DNA from: a virus
Length of the DNA stretch: 22,490 bases
Direction: 5' to 3' (one strand)
Virus record (IMG/VR): IMGVR_UViG_3300006802_007139
Coordinates: 1-22,490 of that record
Made by a program: the position numbers and the translations under genes. Below the pieces are notes generated by a model. The model was given only the letters and a program-made list of their open reading frames with translations, did no database searches and was not told the DNA's origin. Numbering within the stretch: the stretch's first letter is position 1; every line of letters begins with the position of its first letter. Positions 10,473 through 15,719 of this stretch are shown piece by piece.

Positions 10473-11398
10473 TGGCTCAGAACCCCGCTCCGAAGAAGAA
10501 GAAGACTCCTGCGCAGATTGCTGCCGAGAGACGGCGTCGAGCGCAGCAGCGTGCCGTCTTCCAGCAGATCAAGGATGACTTCGGGATCACTGATGCTCTG
10601 CTGGACGCTGACCCGACCGACCCGAAGACTGGGTTCTCTCTTCGGGAAGCGTTCGACCAGATCCGGCGTGAGCAGATCACTGATGCGAACCGTGCTGCTG
10701 AGATCATCAACAAGACGACATGGTTCCGCAACAATGGTGTCGGTGTTCTTGAGCGCATTGCGCTCAGGCGTTCCAACCCTGGTGTCTACAAGAAGCGTCT
10801 GGCTGACAAGGCGAACGAGCTGCGCCGCATATTCGTGCAGATGAACCTTGATGTCAGCCGTGGGACGTTGGGCCGGATGGCTAAGGACGCTTTCGAGTAC
10901 GGCTTGGACGCGAACCAGGTCGTTGACAAGTACAAGGCGAAGATCAAGGTCAGTGACGGGTCTGACGGTGAGCAGGCTCTGCGAGGGTTCGCCCGTCAGA
11001 TGGGTGTCCAGTTGACGGACGACTGGTTCAGGAATGCTGCCCTCCAGATGACGACTGGTTCACAGAACTCGGCTACGTATGAGGAGCGCATCCGCGCTCA
11101 GGCGAAGAACACTTACGGGTACTGGGCTGACAGGATCGATGAGGGTGAGACGGTTGAGGAGCTCGCCGGCCAGTACTTGGCGTATGCGCAGCAGTGGCTT
11201 GAAGATCCGAACGTGAACTTGATGGATCGCACTGTGCGGCAGGCGTTGCAGCCTGCTGACGGATCGAATCAGCCGTCTCCTCTGTGGAAGTTTGAGCAGT
11301 CGGTGAAGAAGGATCCGCGTTGGAAGTCCACGAAGAACGCGCAGGCAACTTACGCTGAAACTGCTGGGCGTCTCCTTCAGTCTTGGAGTGTCGCATGA
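10472..11398 (+). CDS. Helical virion accessory protein with basic N-terminus
   Basis: A 308-residue protein. ATG at 10472 overlaps the previous TGA; AAGGGG at 10460-10465 is the likely ribosome site. Residues 1-30 are extremely basic (K-K-K-K, E-R-R-R-R); the rest reads as a helical protein. Notable segments are T-T-W-F-R-N-N-G at about 80-87, a Y-K-K-R-L-A-D-K-A-N-E-L-R-R helix around 110, and repeated short amphipathic helices with Gly turns. There are no membrane segments. It lies between the Gly-rich protein and a similarly helical 279-aa protein, so a joint role in the head interior or DNA ejection is plausible. I cannot assign it to a named family. Confidence 0.65.
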   Translation: MAQNPAPKKKKTPAQIAAERRRRAQQRAVFQQIKDDFGITDALLDADPTDPKTGFSLREAFDQIRREQITDANRAAEIINKTTWFRNNGVGVLERIALRRSNPGVYKKRLADKANELRRIFVQMNLDVSRGTLGRMAKDAFEYGLDANQVVDKYKAKIKVSDGSDGEQALRGFARQMGVQLTDDWFRNAALQMTTGSQNSATYEERIRAQAKNTYGYWADRIDEGETVEELAGQYLAYAQQWLEDPNVNLMDRTVRQALQPADGSNQPSPLWKFEQSVKKDPRWKSTKNAQATYAETAGRLLQSWSVA

Positions 11399-12234
11399 GT
11401 GAGCAGATTCCTGAGTCTCTTGCGCAGTGGGCTGTGGACGCGTTGCAGAAGCAGTTCCAAGACATCGGTCTGGGTGATCTCTGGTCCCTCATAGACAACT
11501 ACATCGTTGAGGGAACGGACACGTTCGATGAGATCATGTCTCGTATCCGCTACGACCAGTCAGCCCAACAGGTGCTTGACCGCCGGTTTCCAGCGTTGAA
11601 GGATCGTCCCGACCTGGACATACCTTCATATCTTGCGTTGGAGAACCAGTACAAGTCGATCATTCAATCCGCTGGATTGCCGGAAGGTTTCTACGACCAG
11701 CGTTCCGACTACACTTCGTGGATTTCCACCGATGTGTCACCGCTGGAGGTTCAGGCCCGTATCGGCACCGCTTCACAAGCGGTGGCGAACGCTGACCGGA
11801 ACGTGAAGCAGGCTCTCGCGGACTACTACGGCGTCAATGATGCTGGGATCATGGCGCACTTCTTGGACCCGAAGAAGGCCGCAGATGTACTTGCCGGCCA
11901 GTACCGTGCCGCCCAAGTGGGTGGGGCGTACCGGTCTGAGGGGATGAGTCTGAGCAAGGATCTGGCTGAGGAGGTCGGCGCAGGCGACTTCGGTGGTCGC
12001 GAGCTGATGATGGGTGCGCAGCAGGTTGCGGGTGACATGGATGCTGCGGGCAAGTTGAGCCGGATCTATGGGGACGACTTGACCAGTGAGGATCTCACTC
12101 GAGAGACGTTCAACTTGGCTGGTGGCTCGGAGGCTCGGAAGAAGAAAGGTCGGCTGGCGTCGAAGGAGCGTGCCTCGTTCAGTGGCGCTTCTGCTGTGAG
12201 TGACAACTCGCTGCGCCAGCGGGCGCAAGTCTAA
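11395..12234 (+). CDS. Helical virion accessory protein, last gene before the intergenic break
   Basis: A 279-residue protein. I use the ATG at 11395 (ATGA overlap with the previous stop) rather than an in-frame upstream start at 11383, because the overlap matches the window's usual coupling. The protein is almost wholly helical. The first 70 residues (G-L-G-D-L-W-S-L-I, then D-T-F-D-E-I-M-S-R-I-R, then R-R-F-P-A-L-K-D-R) look like a short conserved helical module; the middle is Ala/Gln/Gly-rich. The last ~35 residues are Lys/Arg/Ser-rich (A-R-K-K-K-G-R-L-A-S-K-E-R). A hairpin with a T-run follows nine bases after the stop, so this may end the first late transcription unit. Function unknown. 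Confidence 0.65.
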   Translation: MSEQIPESLAQWAVDALQKQFQDIGLGDLWSLIDNYIVEGTDTFDEIMSRIRYDQSAQQVLDRRFPALKDRPDLDIPSYLALENQYKSIIQSAGLPEGFYDQRSDYTSWISTDVSPLEVQARIGTASQAVANADRNVKQALADYYGVNDAGIMAHFLDPKKAADVLAGQYRAAQVGGAYRSEGMSLSKDLAEEVGAGDFGGRELMMGAQQVAGDMDAAGKLSRIYGDDLTSEDLTRETFNLAGGSEARKKKGRLASKERASFSGASAVSDNSLRQRAQV

Positions 12235-12243
12235 GCAACACCA

Positions 12244-12268
12244 CCCAACCTCTTCAGGGTTGGGTTTT
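12244..12268 (+). terminator. Rho-independent terminator candidate
   Basis: A 7-bp stem (CCCAACC at 12244-12250 with GGTTGGG at 12258-12264), a 7-nt loop and a TTTT run at 12265-12268. It follows the stop of the 279-aa gene by nine bases and ends one base before the tRNA/tmRNA-like element. The T-run is short, so readthrough is likely. Confidence 0.65.
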
Positions 12269-12269
12269 A

Positions 12270-12342
12270 GGGGATGGCAGGTTTCGTACCGGCCCAAGCG
12301 TGCAGCCGGTCGGTAACCCCGGTTCGACTCCGGGCATCTCCA
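12270..12342 (+). ncRNA. 73-nt tRNA-like element resembling a tmRNA without its tag-coding middle
   Basis: Seen by hand folding: a 7-bp acceptor-type stem (GGGGATG 12270-12276 with CATCTCC 12335-12341, one G-T pair), discriminator A at 12342, and a perfect T-arm (CCCGG 12318-12322, loop TTCGACT 12323-12329, CCGGG 12330-12334). Between them is a 6-bp stem ACCGGC/GCCGGT (12288-12293 and 12305-12310) with an 11-nt loop. No 5-bp anticodon stem with a 7-nt loop can be drawn and base 8 is G, so it is not an ordinary tRNA. The 5' side carries GGGG, GGTTTCG and AAGCGTGC, features of actinobacterial tmRNA 5' ends, and the 3' side matches a tmRNA end. Pseudoknots and the tag frame are absent, and no CCA is encoded. 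It could be a decayed tmRNA, a new small RNA, or a chance tRNA mimic. Confidence 0.5.
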
Positions 12343-12462
12343 CTCCGCACACGGATCAATCGGCCCCGTGGCGAGTAATGAGTCCGATAGTCGTCACTTC
12401 CAACACTCTACCCCTGGAGTGTCTGCGTGTGGCGCAAACCTTCAAAGATAGGGAGTTACAAG
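12343..12462 (+). promoter_or_regulatory. Leader region of the scaffold gene with hairpins
   Basis: A non-coding stretch of 120 nt. It contains a hairpin at 12403-12422 (ACACTCTA, CCCC loop, TGGAGTGT; 8 bp with one G-T) and a weaker 5-bp stem ATCGG/CCGAT at 12359-12363 and 12384-12388. The ribosome site GGGAG at 12451-12455 lies 7 nt before the scaffold ATG. I could not identify a convincing -35/-10 promoter. The block may be the 5' leader of a separate capsid transcript or the continuation of the RNA just upstream. Confidence 0.35.
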
Positions 12463-12957
12463 ATGGCTGATCAGAATGTTGACATGTTCGATGACGACTT
12501 CGACCTGGACGATGACGGTGACCTCTACGAGGAGCCGGCTCAGTCCACCGCTCTTGTGCGCAAGCTGCGCCGCGAGTTGAACGCTGCCAAGAAGATGATC
12601 AGGGAGAAGGATTCGGCTCTGTCCTCCCTGATGTCTGATGCGCGCACCCGCACCATCAAGGATGTTCTCTCCTCCTCGGGTGCCAATCCGAAGATTGCAG
12701 CGTTCGTGCCTGCTGACATTGAGCCAAGTGAGCAGGCCGTTTCGGCATGGTTGAAGGAGTACGGTGACGTGTTCGGGTTCAGTCCCGCTCAGGACACTGA
12801 TGATCGGCCTAACGGCAGTGTCAACACTGACACTGTTGGGCGCATGAACGCTGCTGAGGCGTTCGGCTCCCCAGTTGAGGTCGCAGGCGATCTGGAAAAC
12901 ATGATTCTGAACGCCTCGTCCCGTGAGGAGCTGCAAGCCCTTCTGCGGAACGCGTGA
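12463..12957 (+). CDS. Capsid scaffolding protein
   Basis: A 164-residue protein. ATG at 12463 is chosen for GGGAG at 12451-12455; an in-frame GTG at 12427 has no good ribosome site. The first ~25 residues are extremely acidic (D-D-D-F-D-L-D-D-D-G-D), followed by a charged helix likely to form a coiled coil (about 28-55: L-V-R-K-L-R-R-E-L-N-A-A-K-K-M). A middle domain contains V-S-A-W-L-K-E-Y-G-D-V-F-G-F, and a helical C-terminus ends L-Q-A-L-L-R-N-A. This profile and the position directly before the major capsid gene are typical of phage scaffolds, which shape the procapsid and then leave. There is no protease motif, so it is not a fused protease-scaffold. Confidence 0.75.
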   Translation: MADQNVDMFDDDFDLDDDGDLYEEPAQSTALVRKLRRELNAAKKMIREKDSALSSLMSDARTRTIKDVLSSSGANPKIAAFVPADIEPSEQAVSAWLKEYGDVFGFSPAQDTDDRPNGSVNTDTVGRMNAAEAFGSPVEVAGDLENMILNASSREELQALLRNA

Positions 12958-12994: not shown

Positions 12995-13957
12995 GTGGCT
13001 AACACCTATACAGGTACTGCGACCATCTCGAACCAGACTGGTATCACCAACCTGATCCAGACCGCGTACGACAAGTACATCGAGTTCGCTCTGCGTAGCG
13101 AGCCGATGTTCCGTGCGTTCGCGGACAAGCGTCCGGTTGATGTCACCTCTGCTGGTACGAGCGTGGTCTTCCAGCGGTACGCCGACCTCTCGGCGGCGAC
13201 CACCGCTCTCACTGAGAACGTTGACCCTGACGCGGTTGCTCTGAGCAACACAACCACGGTCACCGTCACTCTCAACGAGTACGGCAACGCTGTGCTCACC
13301 ACGGAGAAGCTGACCCTGTCGGCTCTCTCCGACGTTGACCCTGCTATCGCTGAGCTTGTCGCGTGGAACATGCGTGACTCGCTTGACCAGCTCGTCCGCA
13401 CCACCCTGGTGGGCGGCACGAACGTGGTGTACGCGAACAACGGCAACGTTGACACCACTGGTCCGACGAACACTGTCGGCACCAGCGCGGACATCATCAA
13501 GTCGGCGTATGTCCGGTACATCGTGTCGAAGCTTCGCGGCAACTCTGCGATCCCGTTCGACGGCGGCTACTACACCGGCATCATCCACCCGGATGTGTCG
13601 CACGACCTTCGTGCTGAGACTGGCATGGCGGCGTGGCGCGACCCGCACGTCTACGCGGACAACGCTAACGCTTCGCTGTGGGCTGGCGAGGTCGGCGTGT
13701 ACGAGGGTGTCCGGTTCATCGAGTCGCCTCGTACCTACAGCGCGACTGATGGTGCTGCTTCGGCGAAGGTTCACCGCAGCCTGTTCCTGGGCCGTCAGGC
13801 TCTGGCTGAGGCTGTGTCGCGTGAGCCTGGTGTGGTGATCGGCCCGGTGACGGACAAGCTGATGCGCAGCCGACCGATCGGTTGGAAGTGCCTGATCGGC
13901 TGGGCACGCTACCGCGAGGAGGCCCTGTTCCGGCTGGAGTCCTCCAGCACCTACTAG
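12995..13957 (+). CDS. Major capsid protein, N4-gp56-like family
   Basis: A 320-residue protein, GTG at 12995 with GGAG at 12984-12987. It forms the icosahedral shell. The N-terminal pattern is characteristic: a helix Y-D-K-Y-I-E-F-A-L, then F-R-A-F-A-D-K-R-P-V, then a V-V-F-Q-R-Y-A-D-L beta strand, T-A-L-T-E-N-V-D-P, then V-T-V-T-L-N-E-Y-G-N-A-V-L-T-T-E-K. This order matches the N4-gp56 type of HK97-fold capsid protein. The later Y-Y-T-G-I-I-H-P-D-V (about residues 189-198) and V-Y-E-G-V-R-F-I-E-S-P (about 235-245) are also typical of that family. A strong stem-loop follows the stop, consistent with high, locally controlled expression. The family call is from motif memory. Confidence 0.85.
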   Translation: MANTYTGTATISNQTGITNLIQTAYDKYIEFALRSEPMFRAFADKRPVDVTSAGTSVVFQRYADLSAATTALTENVDPDAVALSNTTTVTVTLNEYGNAVLTTEKLTLSALSDVDPAIAELVAWNMRDSLDQLVRTTLVGGTNVVYANNGNVDTTGPTNTVGTSADIIKSAYVRYIVSKLRGNSAIPFDGGYYTGIIHPDVSHDLRAETGMAAWRDPHVYADNANASLWAGEVGVYEGVRFIESPRTYSATDGAASAKVHRSLFLGRQALAEAVSREPGVVIGPVTDKLMRSRPIGWKCLIGWARYREEALFRLESSSTY

Positions 13958-14471: not shown

Positions 14472-15719
14472 GTGGCTCTGACCAAGTTCTATCTGAAGCG
14501 GACTTCTACGACGGTCAGCGGCACGCTGGTTGGCACAACCGCGACTGTCTCAGCGACAACACCTACCTACATCGGCGCGGCGGGGAACTTGTCGGAGGAG
14601 ATGAACGGTGTCATCTCCACGGCAGCACAGACATCTTTGACGCTGGCTATCCCAGGGAATACGACTGTTCCTCGTTCTGGTCTGATCGCAAGATGGTACT
14701 CGTCTCCGATCGCTGGTCAGACTATCGGCAGTCAGACGATCACGGTGTCGATCGCTGTCCAAGAGAACAACTTGGACAGCAACTACCAGTTCACTTGGGT
14801 TCTTGCGGTTTGGCGCCCGTCCAATGGAACTTTGGTGGGTCGCGTCTGGGACCAGTTGTCGGCGGCGGCTGAGCCGCCGTCAACTTCTTTCGCGGCTGTC
14901 ACCGTGGGCACTGGTGGTTCGTCCACTTCGGTCACTTGCGAGTTCGGGGACGTGCTGGTTCTGGAGGCGTGGCGGGCGTCCAGCGTCACCGGAGCCACCA
15001 ACACTCGCAACAATCTTGTCGGCTACGACGGGACAACTGAGGGTGGCGCGACGAACAATGCCGCCTACATTGAGTTCGCGAACGCTATCGCATTCTATGA
15101 CACTGGTGACGCTGCACTGTCGGCGTCACTGTCGTTGACTGCTTCCGGTTCTCCGCTGACCTCTGGATCAGCTCCGTTGTCGGCGTTGTCGGCGTTGTCG
15201 GCGGCGGGAGACATTGTCGCTCCAATAATCACTGGAAGCGCATCATTGTCTTCATCGATGTCGATGTCGGTGCTGAGCAAGGTTCTGATTGCCGGATCAT
15301 CGACTCTGGCTTCCTCGCTTTCTCTGACTGCTGCCTGGTCGGTTGCGACTGTCTCTGGTTCGGCAGTGTTGATCTCGGATGCGTCGTTGAACGCAGCGTG
15401 CCGCCTGGTCAGGCGGTCGTCTGTGTCTCTGACGAGCAGGGCCGCTTTCAACGAGATCCTGTTCAACATCATTGAGGGCAAGAGGTTCCGTGGTCCCACA
15501 TATGTGATGAAGGGATCTGACGAGTTGTGGTTCGTTGGTCAGTCGGTTGGCGTGACGGTTGTGAAGCGCCAGGATGGTTCCTGGTTTGAGACTGTGTCTC
15601 CGGTTGACTCTGAGTTGCAGGCTGCTGCGCGCGTGTACCGTGGCGGCTACACGTATCCTTTGTCGGATGCTGATGCGGCTGAGCTGACTGCTGCTGGGTA
15701 CGGGGCGTACATCTCATGA
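14472..15719 (+). CDS. Repeat-containing tail or head-fibre protein
   Basis: A 415-residue protein, GTG at 14472 behind GGAGGTGA at 14461-14468. Residues 1-215 look like a beta-sandwich (many alternating T/V/S strands, R-W-Y-S-S-P and V-L-A-V-W-R-P-S-N-G). Residues about 216-325 are low-complexity repeats built on L-S-A-S-L-S-L-T-A and G-S-A-x-L, resembling a fibrous shaft. Residues about 340-415 form a separate C-terminal domain with W-F-V-G-Q-S-V-G-V-T-V-V-K-R and R-V-Y-R-G-G-Y-T-Y-P-L-S-D-A-D-A-A-E-L-T-A-A-G-Y. The layout suggests an elongated virion fibre with a terminal binding or docking module. Its TGA overlaps the next ATG. The exact location in the virion cannot be read from the sequence. 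Confidence 0.6.
   Translation: MALTKFYLKRTSTTVSGTLVGTTATVSATTPTYIGAAGNLSEEMNGVISTAAQTSLTLAIPGNTTVPRSGLIARWYSSPIAGQTIGSQTITVSIAVQENNLDSNYQFTWVLAVWRPSNGTLVGRVWDQLSAAAEPPSTSFAAVTVGTGGSSTSVTCEFGDVLVLEAWRASSVTGATNTRNNLVGYDGTTEGGATNNAAYIEFANAIAFYDTGDAALSASLSLTASGSPLTSGSAPLSALSALSAAGDIVAPIITGSASLSSSMSMSVLSKVLIAGSSTLASSLSLTAAWSVATVSGSAVLISDASLNAACRLVRRSSVSLTSRAAFNEILFNIIEGKRFRGPTYVMKGSDELWFVGQSVGVTVVKRQDGSWFETVSPVDSELQAAARVYRGGYTYPLSDADAAELTAAGYGAYIS
15176..15202 (+). repeat. Three tandem copies of a 9-bp unit
   Basis: GTTGTCGGC occurs three times in a row (15176, 15185, 15194) inside the 415-aa gene and encodes the (L-S-A)3 segment of its shaft. Perfect short tandem repeats of this kind can change copy number by slippage without breaking the frame. 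Confidence 0.9.

Follow-up and report, generated by a model that had tools for sequence, protein, structure and literature searches.

A widespread phage family of tagless mini-tmRNAs, putatively directed at host ribosome rescue

The window analyzed here, a virus record of 22,490 bases, carries at positions 12270-12342 a 73-nt gene that corresponds to the tRNA-like domain of a tmRNA (mini-tmRNA). Judged from sequence comparisons, this element belongs to a family which is widespread in phages and whose RNAs are about 65–89 nt long, and it is probably a real, active phage RNA and not a broken relic; a discrete RNA has not been shown. With modest confidence we favor the reading that it is a functional tmRNA gene consisting of the tRNA-like domain only, whose RNA would compete with the tmRNA of the host and thereby damp trans-translation. 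Data on expression, charging or SmpB binding are not available.

Results

The element in the window

The mini-tmRNA is located between a gene of the structural region and a scaffold-like gene (Table 1). A preliminary description of this DNA had given it the same limits and had listed an acceptor stem, a T-arm and a 6-bp stem closing an 11-nt loop, all of which are present. The acceptor consists of seven pairs with G3·U70 among them, and a full CCA is not encoded at the 3′ end. G3·U70 and A73 are the alanine identity elements of tRNA-Ala and of tmRNA. The short arm can be drawn in two registers: either ACCGGC (12288-12293) pairs with GCCGGT (12305-12310), or ACCGG (12288-12292) pairs with TCGGT (12310-12314), the latter being homologous to the arm of the relatives. 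The registers are mutually exclusive because CGGT is repeated, and either is possible for the window copy. The hairpin preceding the mini-tmRNA is terminator-like or leader-like; hairpins with z below -1.5 were present at this place in 10 of 22 syntenic copies versus 8 of 44 copies in other contexts.

Table 1. Features in and around the mini-tmRNA of the window
Feature	Position	Strand	Remarks
Upstream structural-region gene	11383..12234	+	phrog_8424, function unknown; stop at 12234
Hairpin, 9 bp	12243..12265	+	after the stop codon of the upstream gene, TTTTA behind; -14.0 kcal/mol, z -4.1
Mini-tmRNA	12270..12342	+	tRNA-like domain only, without tag frame and pseudoknots
Acceptor stem, 5′ strand	12270..12276	+	GGGGATG; G3 of G3·U70 at 12272
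D-loop region	12277..12287	+	no D stem; tmRNA-type GGTTTCG at 12280-12286
Short P2-like arm	12288..12314	+	6 bp with 11-nt loop, or 5 bp in the family register
T-arm	12318..12334	+	CCCGG-TTCGACT-CCGGG, 5 bp
Acceptor stem, 3′ strand, and discriminator	12335..12342	+	CATCTCC (12335-12341), U70 at 12339; A73 at 12342
H-type pseudoknot in scaffold-gene leader	12350..12388	+	CACGG/CCGTG-type stem and ATCGG/CCGAT
Downstream gene, scaffold-like by position	12463..12957	+	phrog_7813, function unknown; start approximate
Major capsid protein gene	12995..13957	+	phrog_1357, E 2e-82

The tmRNA model of Rfam (RF00023) aligns end to end (1-374) with the element, whereby 29 nt take the place of 326 model positions. 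The match reached 34.6 bits (E 1.6e-12 for the window stretch) and 43.4 bits in a second search, and in neither search was the gathering score of 47 bits met. The hallmarks of the tRNA-like domain of RF00023 are all there, namely the 7-bp acceptor, G3·U70, A73, the T-arm and the GGNUUCG D-loop. With 29 nt for 326 positions the pseudoknots PK1–PK4 are absent inside the RNA, and so is a tag reading frame with stop codon, there being only about 30 nt between both ends; inspection of the alignment by eye revealed no stop codon shared consistently by the arms of the relatives. A covariance model trained on 38 other sequences, the window excluded (model R1), matched the window with 55.5 bits (E 1.9e-10 in 596 kb). 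Full-length tmRNA and tRNA-Ala reach about 28–31 bits with R1, which thus tells the family apart from both. The element also fits the definition of a DS6A-type TLD-only tmRNA, that is, a phage-borne tRNA-like domain with little else (PMC4131195).

The Rfam and R1 matches confirm the preliminary idea of two tmRNA ends joined together. As to the actinobacterial 5′ cues named in support of it, the GGTTTCG D-loop holds, and AAGCGTGC is a weak cue that is not conserved in relatives. Of the suggested programs, the Rfam models gave the tmRNA match below the cut-off and ARAGORN a tRNA-Arg at 12256-12343, which we rejected since the 5′ end of its acceptor is wrongly placed. The tmRNA* calls of ARAGORN in L105 and L110 look spurious because they extend into the downstream coding region. 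A permuted (two-piece) tmRNA was ruled out as well, the order being 5′ part then 3′ part and RF04321 giving only E 0.57. Plain RNA folding of the element was uninformative (z -1.3), and blastn and megablast searches with the window or the element against phage records gave no useful matches.

Size of the family

Two patterns were used for collecting relatives. Pattern 1, comprising only the 5′ end of the element and the T-arm with 20–50 nt between, found 99 stretches in viral contigs, nearly all of them one coherent RNA. Applied to bacterial and archaeal genomes (257 Gb), it found 12: L186, L187 and L188 resemble genuine mini-tmRNAs, and the other nine resemble chance matches. Chance hits thus contribute little, and it is in viral sequence that the family is concentrated. 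Pattern 2 used only the inner hairpin and the T-arm, without the acceptor and the 5′ half, and yielded 92 viral stretches with 60 distinct sequences, again nearly all the same RNA. Pattern searches and synteny together give well over a hundred loci in phage sequences. What had been called unusual is thus a gene common in environmental phages, with one published phage precedent (DS6A). L188 lies on a contig of a Sinomicrobium MAG binned as Bacteroidota, which suggests a host range beyond Actinobacteria; the phage nature of this contig is unchecked.

The common layout reads GGGG..G...GGNTTCGAC, a short stem, in most copies a CCGCAYGCGG-like hairpin, the returning stem, GGAC, the T-arm and ...CTCCA. 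The window copy has 73 nt versus 78–80 nt in most relatives and lacks the inner hairpin, which is common in the family, not universal; simple arms also occur in L022, L049, L061 and L084. Every pair of the window copy is intact. Its exact form is found elsewhere only in the identical contig L054, so there is no covariation among close relatives for this subtype.

Covariation and alanine identity

The preliminary description had proposed looking for compensatory changes in related phages, and covariation is indeed strong. The 38 distinct sequences share one common structure, in which RNAalifold predicted 20 pairs, 12 with double compensatory changes; 97.5% of the paired cells can pair as against 74% in shuffles. 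The covariation score was 0.60 versus 0.13 in shuffles, with 0.13 or below in slid controls, and for the syntenic set it was 0.58 versus 0.12. Together with the model matches this supports a tagless, tRNA-sized tmRNA mimic, for which, as said, no discrete RNA is in hand.

G3·U70 is present in 38 of 38, 25 of 25 and 58 of 60 distinct sequences in three sets. The last is the pattern-2 set, and its 58 sequences have an independently located acceptor of at least six (nearly always seven) pairs including G3·U70; the two exceptions are a sequence with a deletion and an apparent chance match. Pair 4:69 is variable and pair 3:70 invariant, and Streptomyces phages with a changed 4:69 keep G3·U70. That 3:70 is fixed while 4:69 varies, in acceptors that remain intact, argues for alanylation as a selected property and against decay. 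The structure of the mini-tmRNA is under selection.

In L111, L116 and L130 the GG of the D-loop is changed to AG together with a change of TTC to TGC in the T-loop, and the near relative L115 is unchanged at both places. These paired changes are possibly compensatory in the contact between D-loop and T-loop.

Genomic position and carriers

At capsid-related loci the RNA was found in 36 of 80 cases, on the capsid strand and ending about 640–740 nt before the capsid gene; counting only loci with enough upstream sequence, 35 of 69 have it just before the scaffold and capsid genes. In L026, L064, L066 and L099, with capsid identities of about 30–36%, it stands directly before the scaffold gene. 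Its presence is patchy, as it is missing in L101–L104 and in a clade at about 55% identity. A second group of phages carries it between a head protease gene and a capsid gene, and further copies are near endolysin, replication, helicase or recombinase genes. The closest capsid relatives (L101–L103), which lack the mini-tmRNA, have a different hairpin with a GCAA loop at roughly its place, about 720 nt ahead of the capsid gene. The Streptomyces phages FlowerPower (L181, 3302-5373) and Percastrophe (L197) have about 20 tRNA genes at the position of the mini-tmRNA; this site ahead of the scaffold gene thus accommodates tRNA-like genes.

Among cultured phages R1 finds the mini-tmRNA in the Streptomyces phages Riptide, Tomas, BRock, Mildred21, Anedea, Shaeky and LuckySocke and in the Stenotrophomonas phage Jojan60. 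These copies have no RNA annotation and lie within or beside tRNA clusters; under current annotation mini-tmRNA genes are either unmarked or called tRNAs. Mildred21 (L200) has the unannotated mini-tmRNA at 14947-15023 and an annotated full-length tmRNA at 26067-26335. Several isolates were rejected as carriers: GMA2 and S-CRM01 contain a full-length or permuted tmRNA instead, NiceHouse an ordinary tRNA-Ala, and Konstantine and Validus gave no model match. In the Gordonia phage GMA2 (L275) a Pistol ribozyme match was seen at 1344-1400 inside the tRNA cluster, downstream of the unannotated full-length tmRNA.

We also inspected 27 records with family members. SmpB was not found in them, so that host SmpB would be used. 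An Rfam tmRNA match above the cut-off (47 bits) is present in 20 of the 27, and the best match of each record having one is tRNA-sized, about 68–90 nt. The record of L142 has no Rfam match although R1 detects the mini-tmRNA there. No full-length tmRNA was found in the 27 records, nor with Rfam in 16 syntenic loci.

The adjacent pseudoknot

The pseudoknot directly 3′ of the mini-tmRNA is a separate conserved RNA, which exists also where the mini-tmRNA is absent. In 28 distinct sequences both stems covary strongly, with 96% paired cells and a covariation score of 0.58 versus 0.18. The sequences were chosen for the second stem, whose pairing percentage is hence partly given by construction; the first stem was unselected. 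Rfam gave no match to it in the window and the syntenic loci. The region extends to about 12455 and includes, behind the pseudoknot, a further small hairpin, whose loop is of the CCCC type, and a GTGTGG..GCAA motif (window; relatives L101–L180). The pseudoknot may regulate translation of scaffold and capsid.

Discussion

Most likely the mini-tmRNA, charged with alanine and bound by SmpB, competes with the trans-translation of the host; we infer this mechanism, and none of its steps has been demonstrated. It would be transcribed along with the late structural operon, excised by RNase P and 3′ processing enzymes and completed by CCA addition. Host AlaRS would charge it with alanine, host SmpB and EF-Tu would bind it, and it would then vie with the tmRNA of the host for SmpB and for stalled ribosomes without offering a tag template, so that trans-translation and the tagging of viral products would be damped during infection. 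When expressed in E. coli, the TLD-only molecule of mycobacteriophage DS6A inhibits tmRNA, possibly through titration of SmpB (Mao 2009, as cited by PMC4131195 and PMC11915505). Interference with ribosome rescue, already raised in the preliminary description, is our best guess and not a result.

Three observations do not sit easily with a competitor. In Mildred21 a mini-tmRNA coexists with a full-length tmRNA, a strange combination if the former were purely an inhibitor. The window copy is without the inner hairpin kept by most relatives. Finally, the invariant G3·U70 suggests that charging matters, and this counts against competition because a similar TLD-only molecule was reported to be inhibitory whether or not it can be charged (PMC4131195). 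The invariant charging signal and the coexistence in Mildred21 therefore leave room for an active, tag-free role.

Such a role could be a tagless rescue, in which the alanyl mini-tmRNA together with SmpB moves into stalled ribosomes and takes over the nascent chain, and another factor then releases the viral protein without a degradation tag. We regard this as unlikely, but it is not idle: alanine identity is conserved more strictly than titration needs, and mitochondrial tmRNAs without tag frame have been retained together with SmpB (PMC11915505). The difficulty is that the RNA offers neither a template nor a stop codon for termination. It can be entertained only tentatively that the family is a large, independently evolving class of phage RNAs acting actively on stalled ribosomes without a tag. 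Similarly speculative is the extension that the conserved short arm, often with the CCGCAYGCGG hairpin, replaces the tag frame and the pseudoknots and serves a new function, for example tag-free release of nascent viral chains or SmpB-independent entry.

The mini-tmRNA could instead be a processing signal acting in cis, the tRNA-like fold being cut by RNase P and RNase Z and the upstream transcript thereby split from the scaffold/capsid mRNA. Its place behind a structural gene and ahead of scaffold/capsid in the window family, and between head protease and capsid in the second group, would suit this, as would the hairpin before the mini-tmRNA and the pseudoknot after it. However, many copies are elsewhere, near endolysin or replication genes or inside the tRNA clusters of cultured phages, and an invariant G3·U70 would not be needed; we consider this quite improbable.

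A decayed tmRNA, the plain alternative in the preliminary description, or a remnant of an integration site is refuted for the family. Some phages do use host tmRNA genes as integration sites and contain the 3′ portion of the gene (PMC10865867), but here compensatory changes occur in all arms, the acceptor is intact in 58 of 60 copies with a single deletion seen, both ends are present and not the 3′ half alone, the position is conserved down to about 30% capsid identity, and a full-length tmRNA was lacking both at the same place and elsewhere in the 27 records. An attachment site was rejected because both ends are present and copies occur in structural operons and tRNA clusters. An unusual, tRNA-Ala-like tRNA for decoding, in line with G3·U70, A73 and the ARAGORN tRNA call, is hardly credible for an element without D stem, without an anticodon arm with a 7-nt loop and without a match to the Rfam tRNA model (RF00005) at its cut-off.

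Tagless tmRNAs of such size are known from phage DS6A and from two plastid genes (PMC4131195, PMC11915505), and the phage family therefore counts as a widespread variant of this known kind. In a tmRNA database of 2025 no more than 9 entries are "standard, no CDS" tmRNAs, and phage tmRNAs of all types number 79 (PMC11915505). Like the DS6A molecule (Hudson 2014, PMC4131195; PMC11915505), the mini-tmRNA is phage-encoded, has little beyond the tRNA-like domain and no tag frame; unlike this single described phage case, the family occurs widely, its arms covary and an inner hairpin is often conserved, and homology of the short arm to DS6A is untested. The CDS-less plastid tmRNAs of Mallomonadaceae (about 65 bp) are likewise tRNA-sized without coding part, but they are organellar and reported to be closest to other plastid tmRNAs (PMC11915505). 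The mitochondrial tmRNAs of jakobids and oomycetes (RF02544) also lack a tag reading frame; these are organellar and usually circularly permuted, whereas the phage family has the standard 5′-then-3′ order. With bacterial tmRNA (RF00023) the family shares the acceptor stem, D-loop, T-arm and G3·U70, yet it lacks the tag frame and pseudoknots (about 300 nt). Full-length phage tmRNAs such as those of Mildred21 and GMA2 resemble it in lying near tRNA clusters; they are complete, with 94.6–106.8 bits over the full Rfam model and only about 28 bits with R1.

To sum up, the phage mini-tmRNAs are a widespread variant of an already known tagless tmRNA. With well over a hundred phage loci, several of them in cultured phages of laboratory Streptomyces, one can directly test why phages retain the signal for alanine charging and yet discard the tag, and whether it is common for them to disturb bacterial ribosome rescue or to redirect it.
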